Source of the DNA: Taibaiella soli
GTDB taxonomy: Bacteria; Bacteroidota; Bacteroidia; Chitinophagales; Chitinophagaceae
DNA: 64,000 nucleotides
Reading direction: 5' to 3'
Assembly: GCF_003236175.1 (NCBI RefSeq)
Contig: NZ_QKTW01000015.1
Location: forward strand, 1-64,000
Part shown: in pieces, positions 13,112 to 17,686 of the stretch
Position numbering within the stretch: the first letter of the stretch is position 1
How the letters are laid out: every line of letters starts with the position of its first letter
Position numbers and translations under genes: made by a program
The notes under the pieces: model-generated
Seen by the model: only the letters and a program-made list of their open reading frames with translations
Database searches by the model: none
What the model was told of the DNA's origin: nothing

Positions 13112-13163
13112 CAGGTAAAGATAATTGAGTTTATTGCTATTTTACGGCAGACATCACTCGCTT

Positions 13164-13586
13164 ATGAAAAATTGGATCTTACTCTTGCTGATTTGTTTTG
13201 CTGTTCCTGCATTTGCGCAAAACAGCAACGAACAACAAATTCTTACGATGCTGGATGCACAGGTGAAAGAATGGAACAAAGGGAATATCGCCGGTTATAT
13301 GCACGGCTACTGGGAAAATGACAGCCTGCTTTTTATTGGCAGTAACGGACCGCGCTACGGCTATACAACCACGCTGAAACGGTACCAGCAAGCCTATCCC
13401 GACAAAGCACACATGGGCACATTGACATCTACGATTACCAGCATGAAGCAACTTTCTCCGGAATATTATTTCATTGTAGGCAAATGGGCCCTGAAACGAA
13501 GCGCTGGCAACGTTTCCGGCAGCTACACGTTGTTATTGCGCAAAATAAACGATGTTTGGGTAATTGTTTGTGACCATAGTTCGTAA
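13164..13586 (+). CDS. Exported SnoaL/DUF4440-like protein
   Basis: A 140-aa protein with a signal peptide (MKNWILLLLICFAVPAFA, cleavage before QNS) and an NTF2-fold domain of DUF4440/SnoaL type. Visible landmarks are MLDAQVKEWNKGNIAGYM, a GPRYGY segment and the C-terminal LLLRKINDVWVIVCDHSS typical of that family. The ATG at 13164 is preferred over an upstream in-frame start because it puts the signal peptide first. Such proteins bind small ligands or act as simple isomerases or cyclases; the role here is unknown. It is 19 bp from the Lgt-like gene and probably begins that operon. Confidence 0.75.
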   Translation: MKNWILLLLICFAVPAFAQNSNEQQILTMLDAQVKEWNKGNIAGYMHGYWENDSLLFIGSNGPRYGYTTTLKRYQQAYPDKAHMGTLTSTITSMKQLSPEYYFIVGKWALKRSAGNVSGSYTLLLRKINDVWVIVCDHSS

Positions 13587-13605: not shown

Positions 13606-14376
13606 GTGGTATTTCCCTATAGCGTACATATCGGACAACAAATCATCAGGCTGCATGGAGTTTTCGAATTCCTGGGCATTTTTATTGCATTCCGTTACTA
13701 CCTGTTTTTGCGTCGCCGGAAAGGTGATACGATCAATACGGAAAACAGACTTTTTATTGTAATCGGAGCCACGTTTGGTGCAGTTATTGGTTCGCATCTA
13801 TTAGGTGCTCTGGAAAATATTCCGGAATGGATGGCAGCTACCAGCAAATGGCAATATCTCTATGGCAATAAAACATTGGTCGGTGGCGTACTTGGCGGAT
13901 TATTCGGCGTTGAATCTGTAAAACTTTTAGTTGGCGAAAAACAGCGCAGCGGCGACCTTTTTGTTTTCCCATTGTTGCTGGGAATGATTATTGGCAGAGT
14001 CGGTTGTTTTAGCGCGGGCATTTACGAAGAAACGTACGGACTACCTTCAAAACTGCCATGGGCAATGGATCTGGGCGATGGTATCCTGCGACATCCCGTA
14101 GCTTTGTATGAAATTGTATTTCTGATTTTACTTTGGACTTCACTGTCTGTTTTGAATAAAAAAGAAAAACTGGATTCAGGTGCATTGTTCAAACTTTTCA
14201 TGATCGGCTACCTGCTATTCCGTTTCCTGCTAGATTTTATAAAACCAGGCTGGCGTTACTGCCTTGGCCTCGGATCTATACAACTGGCCTGCCTTGCAGG
14301 ACTTATTTATTATGGCCGTTATTTATTACGCCCCGCACTTTTACTGAAGAAAAAAGAATTGTCTTATGCCGGTTAG
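13606..14376 (+). CDS. Lgt-family membrane protein (prolipoprotein diacylglyceryl transferase paralogue)
   Basis: A 256-aa polytopic membrane protein (about seven helices) of the Lgt superfamily. The signature is present in altered form: GRVGCFSAGIYEETYGLP, then LPWAMDLGDGILRHPVALYE. The early part (FPYSVHIGQQIIRLHGVFEF) matches an Lgt N-terminus. Canonical Lgt moves diacylglycerol from phosphatidylglycerol to lipoprotein cysteines. This one lacks the usual GRIGNFINGE form and is coupled to a radical SAM gene, so another lipid acceptor is likely. It starts at GTG; the nearby ATG at 13599 is out of frame and soon stops. Its 3' end overlaps the radical SAM gene by 11 nt. Confidence 0.75.
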   Translation: MVFPYSVHIGQQIIRLHGVFEFLGIFIAFRYYLFLRRRKGDTINTENRLFIVIGATFGAVIGSHLLGALENIPEWMAATSKWQYLYGNKTLVGGVLGGLFGVESVKLLVGEKQRSGDLFVFPLLLGMIIGRVGCFSAGIYEETYGLPSKLPWAMDLGDGILRHPVALYEIVFLILLWTSLSVLNKKEKLDSGALFKLFMIGYLLFRFLLDFIKPGWRYCLGLGSIQLACLAGLIYYGRYLLRPALLLKKKELSYAG

Positions 14377-15772
14377 AAAATACACCTATTACGATTACAC
14401 CATCAGCCTTTGTCCGGAATGCCTGAAGCGCATTGAAGCGAAGATTGTGTTTGAAGACAACAAAGTGTACATGCTGAAAACCTGCCCGGATCACGGGTTT
14501 CACAAAACACTCATTGCAACAGATGTAGCGTATTACAAAAACATCCGCAATTATAACAAACCTTCGGAAACGCCATTGCGCTTCAATACGAAAACACACT
14601 ACGGCTGTCCATACGACTGCGGACTTTGTACCGATCATGAACAACACAGTTGTTTAACATTAGTTGAAATCACAGATCGCTGCAATCTGTCCTGCCCTAC
14701 TTGTTACGCAATGTCTTCGCCGCATTACGGACGTCATCGTACGTTAGAAGAAGTAGAACAGATGCTAAAAATCATTGTGGCCAACGAAGGCGAACCAGAT
14801 GTGGTGCAAATCAGTGGCGGCGAGCCAACAATTCATCCGCAGTTCTTCGAAATATTAGACATCGCCAAACGCCTGCCCATCAAGCATCTAATGGTAAATA
14901 CAAATGGCATTCGGATTGCGCAGGATCCTGGCTTTGCAGAACGACTGGCGACGTATATGCCCGACTTTGAGATCTATCTTCAGTTTGATTCTTTCAAGCC
15001 GGAAGTATTAACGGCATTGCGCGGAAAAGATCTTTCAGACATCCGTTATAAAGCGCTGGAAAAACTCAATGAACTCAATCTTTCTACCACGCTCGTAGTG
15101 ACGATGCAGAAAGGCATGAATGATGACGAGGCCGGAAAAATCATAGAGTATGCGCTGAAGCAGCGTTGTGTTCGTGGTGTTACTTTTCAGCCAGTGCAGA
15201 TTGCTGGCCGATTTGAACATGAAAACGAAGAAAAAAACCGACTAACGCTTACGGAAGTGCGCGATAATATTCTATCCCAGACTTCGATCTTTCAGCCAAA
15301 CGATATCATTCCTGTGCCTTGCAACCCTGATGCGCTCGCAATGGGCTACGCGCTGAAATTAAATGGCAATATAGTTCCGCTGACGCGCTACATTGATCCG
15401 GCTTATCTGCTGGACAATTCGAAGAATACAATTGTGTACGAACAAGACACGGTCTTGCACGATCATCTGATCAATATTTTCAGCACAGGTATTTCGGTAG
15501 ATAAAGTGACCGAGAATATGCACCAGCTGTTGTGTTGTCTGCCTCAAATTTATGCCCCGGGCCTTTCTTACGAAAATTTATTCCGAGTTATCATTATGCG
15601 CTTTATTGACGCCTATGATTTTGATGTGCGGGCCATCAAAAAATCCTGTGTGCACATTGTGAGCAAAGACGGGAGAATCATTCCGTTTGAAACCATGAAT
15701 CTGTTTTACCGCGATGACAAAGAAACTTACCTCAACGATCTTAAATCACGCTACGATAAAATTCAATTTTGA
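14366..15772 (+). CDS. Radical SAM enzyme resembling tetraether lipid synthase (Tes/MJ0619-like)
   Basis: A 468-aa enzyme. The radical SAM cluster motif is C106-x3-C110-x2-C113, followed by the SAM-binding SGGEPT. An N-terminal C16-x2-C19 with C40-P-x-H-G looks rubredoxin-like, and C81-x3-C85-x2-C88 with C96 offers another Fe-S site. The C-terminus has SCVHIVSKDGRIIPFETMN. This arrangement matches what is known of archaeal Tes, which couples two lipid chains by a C-C bond, and of bacterial homologues. Placement after an Lgt-like gene and before four membrane proteins supports a membrane lipid substrate (inference). MoaA-like peptide or cofactor chemistry is the alternative. Confidence 0.8.
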   Translation: MPVRKYTYYDYTISLCPECLKRIEAKIVFEDNKVYMLKTCPDHGFHKTLIATDVAYYKNIRNYNKPSETPLRFNTKTHYGCPYDCGLCTDHEQHSCLTLVEITDRCNLSCPTCYAMSSPHYGRHRTLEEVEQMLKIIVANEGEPDVVQISGGEPTIHPQFFEILDIAKRLPIKHLMVNTNGIRIAQDPGFAERLATYMPDFEIYLQFDSFKPEVLTALRGKDLSDIRYKALEKLNELNLSTTLVVTMQKGMNDDEAGKIIEYALKQRCVRGVTFQPVQIAGRFEHENEEKNRLTLTEVRDNILSQTSIFQPNDIIPVPCNPDALAMGYALKLNGNIVPLTRYIDPAYLLDNSKNTIVYEQDTVLHDHLINIFSTGISVDKVTENMHQLLCCLPQIYAPGLSYENLFRVIIMRFIDAYDFDVRAIKKSCVHIVSKDGRIIPFETMNLFYRDDKETYLNDLKSRYDKIQF

Positions 15773-16044
15773 AAAAGCCATTCTTAATAATCGCAGGAAT
15801 TAATCTGGGCATCACTTTGCTGGCTCTTTTTTCTATCCTCCACGATAGCAATTTCAATGCCGCATTTGGCATCGTCATACTGCTTATCGGTGCATTCAAT
15901 GGCGTGGTTGGCGTGCTGCTATGCCTTATCGGCATGGCGGAAAAAGCAGTCATGAAATATGGGCTGGCGATGCTGGCAATTTCAGGTATCTATTTACTAT
16001 CCGGTTTTACACTATGTAGTCAAACCAAAATTTCCGTAAATTGA
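15769..16044 (+). CDS. Small three-helix membrane protein, family copy 1
   Basis: A 91-aa hydrophobic protein with three membrane helices (about 4-24, 31-57, 65-84) ending in LLSGFTLCS. Initiation appears to be at TTG, overlapping the radical SAM stop (TTGA, 4 nt), which argues for coupled translation. It shares with the next three genes a pattern of helix, polar turn, G-LLIGAFN-like helix, charged turn, YG, and a final helix ending in a Cys-containing motif. Function is unknown. Confidence 0.7.
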   Translation: MKKPFLIIAGINLGITLLALFSILHDSNFNAAFGIVILLIGAFNGVVGVLLCLIGMAEKAVMKYGLAMLAISGIYLLSGFTLCSQTKISVN

Positions 16045-16060
16045 TAGGAACATTCTGCGT

Positions 16061-16354
16061 ATGAAACCCGAGATGAAGAGAACTTTTATCGTCAATGCAG
16101 CCCTCGCCGGAATCATACTATTGTTTAGTCTGTTTTCGTCAAATGGCGGTCGCAATGATATCACCATAGCAATGGGAATTGGACTGCTGTTGCTGGCGCT
16201 GCTCAATATTTTTGCGGGTGTGGTGACTTTACTTGCCGCCATTGCTGATTCCAAAGGCCCCGCCAAACATTACGGCAGCGCTATGCTAATGGTCGCCGGC
16301 ATTCTTCTACTTTGTAGCCTCACTTTTTGCAGTACCTCATCTTTTAGTATGTAA
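16061..16354 (+). CDS. Small three-helix membrane protein, family copy 2
   Basis: A 97-aa paralogue of the preceding protein. Shared features are the GLLLLALLNIFAGV helix, a KHYGSAML turn and the ending LLCSLTFCS with two cysteines. It lies 16 nt after copy 1. No enzyme motif is seen. Confidence 0.7.
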   Translation: MKPEMKRTFIVNAALAGIILLFSLFSSNGGRNDITIAMGIGLLLLALLNIFAGVVTLLAAIADSKGPAKHYGSAMLMVAGILLLCSLTFCSTSSFSM

Positions 16355-16368
16355 AGGCTATTCTTCGA

Positions 16369-16662
16369 ATGAAAAAAGAGTTAAAAAGAATCGCAGCTTA
16401 CGACGCAGTTGTTTTTTCGCTGGCACTCATACTTGCCCTGATCCTGCATATCGGTAGCGGCAAAGAACTTATGGCGTTTCTGGGATTAGGATTTTTACTG
16501 GTTGCTTTTGTCAATACCAGCATCGGAATTATTTTTCTTCTGGTCAGTTTTATCAATAAAAACATTGCCGTTCGCCGCTATGGCGCGTGCATGTTGCTAT
16601 TGGCAGGCATTGCCCTGCTTTGTGGATTTTCCTTTTGTAGCGTAGCGCATATTCGTCTCTAA
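16369..16662 (+). CDS. Small three-helix membrane protein, family copy 3
   Basis: A 97-aa paralogue with GFLLVAFVNTSIGI, RRYGACML and the ending LLCGFSFCS, the clearest form of the Cys-x5-Cys motif. It lies 14 nt after copy 2. Function is unknown. Confidence 0.7.
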   Translation: MKKELKRIAAYDAVVFSLALILALILHIGSGKELMAFLGLGFLLVAFVNTSIGIIFLLVSFINKNIAVRRYGACMLLLAGIALLCGFSFCSVAHIRL

Positions 16663-16676
16663 ACCCCATTCTCTCC

Positions 16677-16964
16677 ATGAATAAAGCTTTCGGAATTGTC
16701 TTGTTCATCAGTCTGGCCATCATTGCCATTGTAATGACCTGGGCAATGATCATGTTTCCCGGTCAGAATGATTCCATTGCAATTGCTTTTGGGGCTGCTA
16801 CATTTGGGGCTGGCGTATTAAACCTTCTTTCAGGAATTATTCTTTTACTGATTAGCATTCGCAGAAAACCTTTGCGATATTATACTTACGCCTCGTTTAT
16901 TCTTGCGCTAATGATGCTGCTTTGCGGCTTTTTAGTGATTTGGAAGGTTGCAGCGCAGCATTAG
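16677..16964 (+). CDS. Small three-helix membrane protein, family copy 4
   Basis: A 95-aa, more diverged paralogue: GAGVLNLLSGIILL, RYYTYASF and the ending LLCGFLVIW, where the second cysteine is lost. It is 14 nt after copy 3 and ends the operon. The loss of one cysteine may mark a distinct role within a hetero-oligomer (inference). Confidence 0.65.
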   Translation: MNKAFGIVLFISLAIIAIVMTWAMIMFPGQNDSIAIAFGAATFGAGVLNLLSGIILLLISIRRKPLRYYTYASFILALMMLLCGFLVIWKVAAQH

Positions 16965-17008: not shown

Positions 17009-17686
17009 ATGAAGAAGCTACACATCATTTTTTGCCTCCTATCCTTTTTCGCCCTATCCTGCAAAAAGAACAACGATTCTTCAATGAGCTATCAGGTAAA
17101 TGGCGTTGCAAATCTCACGATTCCCAGTACAGGAACTTACGGCCTCCCTATCTCATTAGAATATGCTGCCGGTACTCAGGAACCGGTTTCAATCTCTATC
17201 ACTGATCTGCCTAAAGGTGTTACAGCCAGTGCTTATCCGCAATCCGGTACGCCATCATTTGCAAGTCTGATCACATTCACTACAGATCCAACTGTCGCTA
17301 CAGGCTCTTTTCCAATCAAGATTAAAACAACTGCTCAATCAGGCAGTGTGAAAGAATTATCTTGCTCCATTACAACAACCGCTGATTGCGCCAATGCAGT
17401 TAGTGGCTCCTATGAAGGTTCAAGTTGTGGCAGCAATCAATACACTATTGACGTGCAGGCCGACGCTGATAGAAACAACATAATTATCAAAAATTTTGGT
17501 GGCAACGCCACCATAAAGGCTAGTCTTGATTGTGCTTCGAAAACAATTATTATTCCAACCCAATACTATTATGGTAGCTATACCTGTTCTGGAACCGGCA
17601 CATTTACCGACCAAAGTATCAACATCTCGTATACGATCAACTACGGAACCTCTTCCGACAATTGTACAATGAGTTTCCACAAATAA
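17009..17686 (+). CDS. Lipoprotein of unknown function
   Basis: A 225-aa lipoprotein: signal peptide MKKLHIIFCLLSFFALSC with lipobox Cys18, then KKNNDSS. The mature part has an Ig-like or cadherin-like beta section (about 30-120, with GSFPIKIKTTAQSGSVKE) and a C-terminal beta-rich domain (about 130-225) with six cysteines. The latter is of the kind found in many small surface lipoproteins of Bacteroidetes. Surface location is inferred. It has its own terminator. Confidence 0.7.
   Translation: MKKLHIIFCLLSFFALSCKKNNDSSMSYQVNGVANLTIPSTGTYGLPISLEYAAGTQEPVSISITDLPKGVTASAYPQSGTPSFASLITFTTDPTVATGSFPIKIKTTAQSGSVKELSCSITTTADCANAVSGSYEGSSCGSNQYTIDVQADADRNNIIIKNFGGNATIKASLDCASKTIIIPTQYYYGSYTCSGTGTFTDQSINISYTINYGTSSDNCTMSFHK

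Follow-up and report, generated by a model that had tools for sequence, protein, structure and literature searches.

A gene set of an Lgt-like enzyme, a Tes/TrsS-like radical SAM enzyme and membrane miniproteins with a C-terminal cysteine in Taibaiella soli and other bacteria

Results

Organization of the locus

The window is the whole stretch of DNA that was analysed, 64,000 nucleotides of Taibaiella soli (positions 1 to 64,000 of contig NZ_QKTW01000015.1, forward strand). The genes considered here are as follows:

13606..14376, + strand: Lgt-like gene (256 aa, GTG start), an Lgt-fold integral membrane enzyme and paralogue of the housekeeping Lgt
14366..15772, + strand: radical SAM gene (468 aa), Tes/TrsS-type
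15769..16044, + strand: miniprotein a (91 aa, TTG start), tail LLSGFTLC-SQTKISVN, Cys83 codon at 16015-16017
16061..16354, + strand: miniprotein b (97 aa), tail LLCSLTFC-STSSFSM, Cys90 codon at 16328-16330
16369..16662, + strand: miniprotein c (97 aa), tail LLCGFSFC-SVAHIRL, Cys90 codon at 16636-16638
16677..16964, + strand: miniprotein d (95 aa), without the tail Cys (LLCGFLVIWKVAAQH)

The Lgt-like and radical SAM genes overlap by 11 bp, the radical SAM stop overlaps miniprotein a by 4 bp, and the miniprotein genes are spaced by gaps of 14-16 bp. Similar packing is found in the 80 named Bacteroidota loci, where the Lgt-like gene lies within 100 bp of the radical SAM gene in 68 of 75 and the radical SAM gene within 100 bp of the first miniprotein in 73 of 78; the gene order is rearranged in loci L103 and L062. 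A search of the region for structured RNA found none, and a promoter scan did no better than on shuffled sequence. Directly upstream of the operon, on the same strand, lies a gene for a DUF4440 protein (13125-13586), and directly downstream, also on the same strand, one for a predicted lipoprotein (FALSC, 17009-17686).

The miniprotein family

The original prediction, made from the letters of this DNA, described four tandem paralogous reading frames with particular C-terminal motifs, and all four are present on the + strand. It was also right that the second Cys is missing solely from the last copy, while the Cys-x5-Cys pair that it reported is in fact C-x4-C in copies b and c. Pairwise alignment scored above the shuffled sequences in all six pairs of a to d (z 4.5 to 12.8, with 0 of 500 shuffles as good), the composition being kept locally, by position, in the shuffles as a control for hydrophobic composition; the proposed common ancestry is therefore confirmed. 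Copies b to d share 26-36% identity with copy a, d being the most diverged of the four, and the invariant columns include N44, G48, Y64, L76 and L77. The AlphaFold2 model of miniprotein c, built on 94 aligned sequences, has helices at residues 3-29, 34-63 and 66-96 with a mean pLDDT of 80, so that a three-helix fold may be assumed with moderate confidence.

No Pfam or NCBIfam model spans the miniproteins, in agreement with the earlier statement that no family was recognised; scattered weak matches to these libraries each involved one or two of the 94 members, and a structure search gave no significant fold match. One such match, of a single member to the lipo-invert C-terminal anchoring domain NF058595 (E 0.003, under the curated cut-off), was set aside as noise, since no genome scored above the cut-off and all 14 control genomes gave matches too.

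That the miniproteins are spurious reading frames was ruled out by dN/dS values of 0.05-0.29 between orthologue pairs and by the enrichment of the tail pattern, which occurs in 114 of 126 miniproteins compared with 22 of 155 for the remaining small multi-helix reading frames at the same loci, an enrichment that is partly circular because the seeds had been chosen with a similar pattern. The miniproteins are under purifying selection. This holds also for Chitinophaga copies that lack the tail cysteine (dN/dS 0.15-0.17), and it follows that a miniprotein has a role besides carrying that residue.

Co-occurrence and copy number

Across the 296 Bacteroidota genomes sampled (thresholds of E 1e-100 for the radical SAM enzyme and E 1e-20 for the Lgt-like protein), the radical SAM gene was found in 24 and the Lgt-like gene in 25; both were present in 24 and the radical SAM gene alone in none (Fisher p 2e-34, a value that overstates the number of independent events because the sampled genomes are related, although the positives span ten families). 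A profile of the miniproteins matched 15 of the 24 radical SAM genomes and one of the 272 others (p 3e-18), and in each of the other nine a short Cys-tailed transmembrane reading frame was seen beside the enzymes by eye, in a reading that was not blind. All of the 80 named loci, which had been found by their radical SAM sequence, carry one to four miniproteins, in line with the functional linkage to the enzyme pair that had been proposed. Genomes that keep the radical SAM orthologue and lack the miniproteins would speak against that linkage, and none was found. The components are retained even where they are scattered: genome G089 has each of the three genes on a contig of its own, and G323 keeps the Lgt-like gene apart from the other two. 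The three genes are thus linked and co-occur.

Two single components were also observed. Genome G030 has an Lgt-like gene with no detected radical SAM partner (L202 3153-3998), and G070, the sole profile match outside the 24, has a Cys-tailed miniprotein with no detected enzymes (L223 4143-4553); the latter adjoins a ribonucleotide-reductase-like gene, as does the miniprotein in G089.

The number of miniproteins detected per locus is one in 43 of the 80 Bacteroidota loci, two in 30, three in five and four in two. Since one or two copies are usual, the four-subunit hetero-oligomer envisaged originally is not supported. The four copies of the window group together in the tree with a weak support of 0.41, which hints at a lineage-specific expansion.

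Related cassettes in other bacteria

A tblastn search of plasmids detected relatives of the radical SAM enzyme, 29-33% identical, in Mycobacterium avium pS2b, M. branderi and Nonomuraea, and on each of these actinobacterial replicons the relative is accompanied by a gene of the Lgt family and by one or two miniproteins with ILSAGxCTGLNP-type tails. The cassettes lie at L167 2222-5542 (M. avium plasmid pS2b), L168 2352-5545 and L169 2129-5506. Their miniprotein tails are strongly conserved (GLGLGLMIGWALxSILSAGxCTGLNP), and the miniproteins of Nonomuraea and M. branderi have Pro-rich N-terminal extensions.

A sister cassette with a TrsS/Tes-like radical SAM enzyme 38-40% identical was found in genomes G209 and G174 (L200 936-4442 and L201 986-4588). 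It contains, together with the radical SAM gene, an ICMT-like methyltransferase, a DUF4395 gene, an Lgt-like gene and, immediately behind the latter, a Cys-tailed miniprotein. Some members of the ICMT family act on lipidated cysteine, but the family also takes in methanethiol and lipid A methyltransferases, and the ICMT-like gene is therefore only suggestive.

The tail cysteine

Most miniproteins end in a final transmembrane helix together with the consensus LL[IV]GFSxC. By a simple count the cysteine is present in 118 of 126 miniproteins, at a median of 8 residues before the C-terminus, and every Cys-less miniprotein detected is an extra copy adjoining a Cys-bearing one. At locus L037 no Cys falls in the 24-residue window of the script, but the reading frame is longer there and the residue sits farther from its end. 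In the alignment of 94 miniproteins only Met1 and the tail Cys are conserved at 90% or above; the frequency of Cys in the family is partly circular because the seeds were picked by a pattern that included it, though a later profile recovered Cys-less members as well. Lys and Arg average 2.4 in the loop preceding the last helix and 0.37 in the tail, and among 115 proteins the loop exceeds the tail in 101 and falls below it in two. From this positive-inside bias the tail Cys is predicted to be periplasmic.

The original prediction raised metal or disulphide use of the cysteine pair. Position -5, where the first Cys of copies b and c lies, is I, V, L or A in nearly all relatives and the second Cys alone is conserved, so that neither use is supported. 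The same observation bears on the suggestion that the miniproteins might be peptides for immunity, regulation or sensing in a lipid pathway run by the enzyme pair, with redox-sensing cysteines. Their small size, rapid divergence and varying copy number, as well as the second Cys in some copies, would suit such peptides; however, that second Cys is unconserved, and strict co-occurrence across phyla together with one conserved cysteine at the membrane boundary argues for a core rather than an accessory role. This explanation appears highly improbable.

It is also conceivable that the miniproteins are not substrates but subunits or scaffolds, which bring the soluble radical SAM enzyme to the membrane and present lipids to either enzyme; the product of the pair would then be a free modified lipid, and the Cys would be structural or pack against an enzyme. 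The continued selection on Cys-less copies, the presence of at least one miniprotein copy in every case and the membership of the radical SAM enzyme in a lipid-modifying family (PMC9433317) would all be expected of a scaffold. A scaffold would account less readily for a family in which, over 94 diverged sequences, strong conservation is limited to Met1 and the Cys while the body falls to 12-37% identity to copy c. In addition, the Cys-less copies detected all lie beside a Cys-bearing one, which is easier to reconcile with a Cys that reacts or is modified than with one that packs. A scaffold role is judged unlikely, albeit the most credible of the alternatives to a substrate.

The Lgt-like enzyme

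The Lgt-like protein matches PF01790 (E 1.6e-20, 73.9 bits against a cut-off of 24.9) and falls under the TIGR00544 equivalog cut-off (36.5 against 118.9 bits). Its AlphaFold2 model (pLDDT 94) has the fold of E. coli Lgt, 5azb, the sole significant match among solved structures (Foldseek E 1.3e-7; VIA Z 13.7 over 242 residues). R131, C134 and R206 align with E. coli R143, N146 and R239, and the equivalents of the phospholipid-binding R143 and R239 are kept in at least 95% of 77 sequences. A Cys occupies the N146 position both here and in the housekeeping Lgt of the genome, the signature GRxGC being common to the two, and H17 stands at the position of Y26, which is counted, like H103, as essential in Lgt. 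The column of E. coli H103 (HGGL), a residue proposed to bind the acceptor, is V or L across the Lgt-like clade, while the housekeeping Lgt has Y there; H103 is not absolutely conserved, as some Lgt have Y, W or F (PMC13251419).

Compared with Lgt, the Lgt-like protein is shorter, is encoded by a second gene beside the housekeeping one, and is nearly confined to genomes with the radical SAM enzyme. Since the housekeeping Lgt is present elsewhere in the genome (at C23), the paralogue would be free for another job. MSMEG_5408, the second Lgt homologue of M. smegmatis, is reported to carry Y26H and N146C (PMC13251419). H17 and C134 are the corresponding changes in the present protein, and the M. 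avium plasmid protein shares them; on this pattern MSMEG_5408 may be followed as a lead to a further member of these cassettes.

The radical SAM enzyme

This protein is a Tes/TrsS/HMPTM-type radical SAM enzyme that carries a zinc-ribbon/rubredoxin domain. It has a rubredoxin motif (C16-x2-C19-x20-C40-x2-H43), an N-terminal cluster (C81/C85/C88, C-x3-C-x2-C) and an RS cluster (CX3CX2C, C106/C110/C113), and the spacing of the rubredoxin and cluster ligands is identical to that described for Tes (PMC9433317). It matches 7tol (GDGT-MAS, MJ0619) with E 2.8e-68, and its C-terminal part aligns to Tes across residues 333-454. The NCBIfam models for Tes (E 5.3e-89, 299 bits, cut-off 450) and TrsS (E 6.6e-101, 338 bits, cut-off 490) place it closer to TrsS; as it lies under both cut-offs, its proper name is Tes/TrsS-like and not Tes. 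The equivalent of Tes Met439, M411, is conserved. Tyr459, which is conserved in archaeal Tes, is replaced by Ile431, itself conserved as Ile, and tail-to-tail coupling by the Tes mechanism is therefore uncertain.

A short, variable protein with a constant C-terminal motif and an adjoining radical SAM gene, present as a small substrate in one to four diverged copies, also calls to mind a RiPP-like pathway. The radical SAM enzyme would then first modify the tail in the cytoplasm, for example by a thioether or other crosslink at GFSxC, and the Lgt-like protein would serve a later step or act as export or anchoring partner. Yet the enzyme is of the Tes/TrsS/HMPTM type, its C-terminus had no match among the SPASM-domain family models of Pfam and NCBIfam, and the motif to be modified sits within and just past a transmembrane helix. 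A pathway of this kind is considered improbable, more so than a scaffold.

Discussion

Homology, fold, the conserved ligands and arginines and the conservation of the tail cysteine are observed directly, and the topology of the miniproteins is predicted. With an Lgt fold beside an invariant cysteine at the periplasmic boundary, the simplest use of that cysteine is as a lipid acceptor, and since the radical SAM enzyme belongs to its particular family, it may be expected to work on lipid chains. Our main reading, to which we give a probability of about 0.42, is that the miniproteins are substrates whose tail Cys is lipidated by the Lgt-like enzyme and that the radical SAM enzyme alters that lipid. 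Cysteine lipidation, one of several uses entertained in the original prediction, thereby becomes the leading option, its chemistry being what we infer.

A possible scheme for such a three-component membrane-modification system can be described as follows. The last helix of the miniprotein would run from the positively charged cytoplasmic loop to the periplasm and end in LL[IV]GFS-x-C, which would bring the Cys to the outer face of the membrane in the geometry of a lipobox, here at the C-terminus. With the two arginines that grip the phospholipid in Lgt still in place, the dedicated paralogue may then move a glyceryl lipid onto the tail thiol. Residue -1 to the Cys is mostly T, V, I or L, whereas S or A predominates at this position in the ordinary lipobox-like starts of flanking genes (a small sample, n=23); cleavage by LspA is therefore unlikely, and the helix would be retained. 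The Tes-like radical SAM enzyme might modify alkyl chains, either in the donor lipid or in the product, by making a C-C bond or something similar, and Cys-less miniproteins would be partners rather than acceptors. The transfer of lipid to the tail Cys, the order of the steps, the substrate of the radical SAM enzyme and the biological role are all parts of this scheme that we infer.

In favour of lipidation we counted the co-occurrence, the retention of unlinked genes in G089 and G323, the recurrence in actinobacterial and sister cassettes, the positive-inside charge, the Lgt arginines, the Tes ligand spacing and the dN/dS of 0.05-0.29. Counted against it were V or L at H103, Ile431 at Tyr459, the selected Cys-less copies, the orphans in G030 and G070, and the presumably cytoplasmic radical SAM enzyme set against a Cys predicted to be periplasmic. 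More speculatively, a lipid remodelled by the radical SAM enzyme, possibly tail-coupled, might be attached to the C-terminal Cys. The cassette would then be an inverted lipoprotein system that has an Lgt of its own, and its bacterial Tes homologue would have no free lipid as end product; we regard this only as a tentative extension of the main reading, and as less probable than it.

Bacterial Tes homologues exist whose product is not known (PMC9433317, PMC8941075), and it has been proposed that they might make brGDGTs (PMC8941075). Through the cassette, one large group of them is linked with a Cys-tailed miniprotein and with the fold of a phospholipid-to-cysteine transferase, so that the question of their product becomes testable in cultured soil Bacteroidota such as Mucilaginibacter and Chitinophaga. 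It also offers a reason for the second, divergent Lgt of some genomes. If the tail Cys is lipidated, bacterial protein lipidation would extend to C-terminal, uncleaved sites by way of a non-housekeeping Lgt.

Comparison with known systems

The three-part gene set is apparently undescribed: no paper on a cassette of Lgt and radical SAM genes was found in the open-access literature, where absence is no proof of novelty. Its parts are known folds and superfamilies, and neither their combination nor the C-terminal Cys tail turned up in the family libraries and papers that were searched. Like bacterial lipoproteins, the miniproteins have a hydrophobic helix that is predicted to run from inside to outside and to bear a Cys at its periplasmic end, with mostly F or L at -3 and S, G or T at -2 in likeness to a lipobox. 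Unlike lipoproteins, they carry this Cys at the C-terminus of a protein of two to three helices, and residue -1 is mostly outside the usual G, A or S. The DAG-RiPPs, RiPP-lipoprotein hybrids of Bacteroidota, likewise join modification by a metalloenzyme to Lgt-type lipidation of a small ribosomal product. Their metalloenzyme is an MNIO, and lipidation takes the usual N-terminal route of lipoproteins (PMC12636315); in contrast, the present cassette has an Lgt paralogue of its own, a radical SAM enzyme of the Tes type and transmembrane miniproteins.
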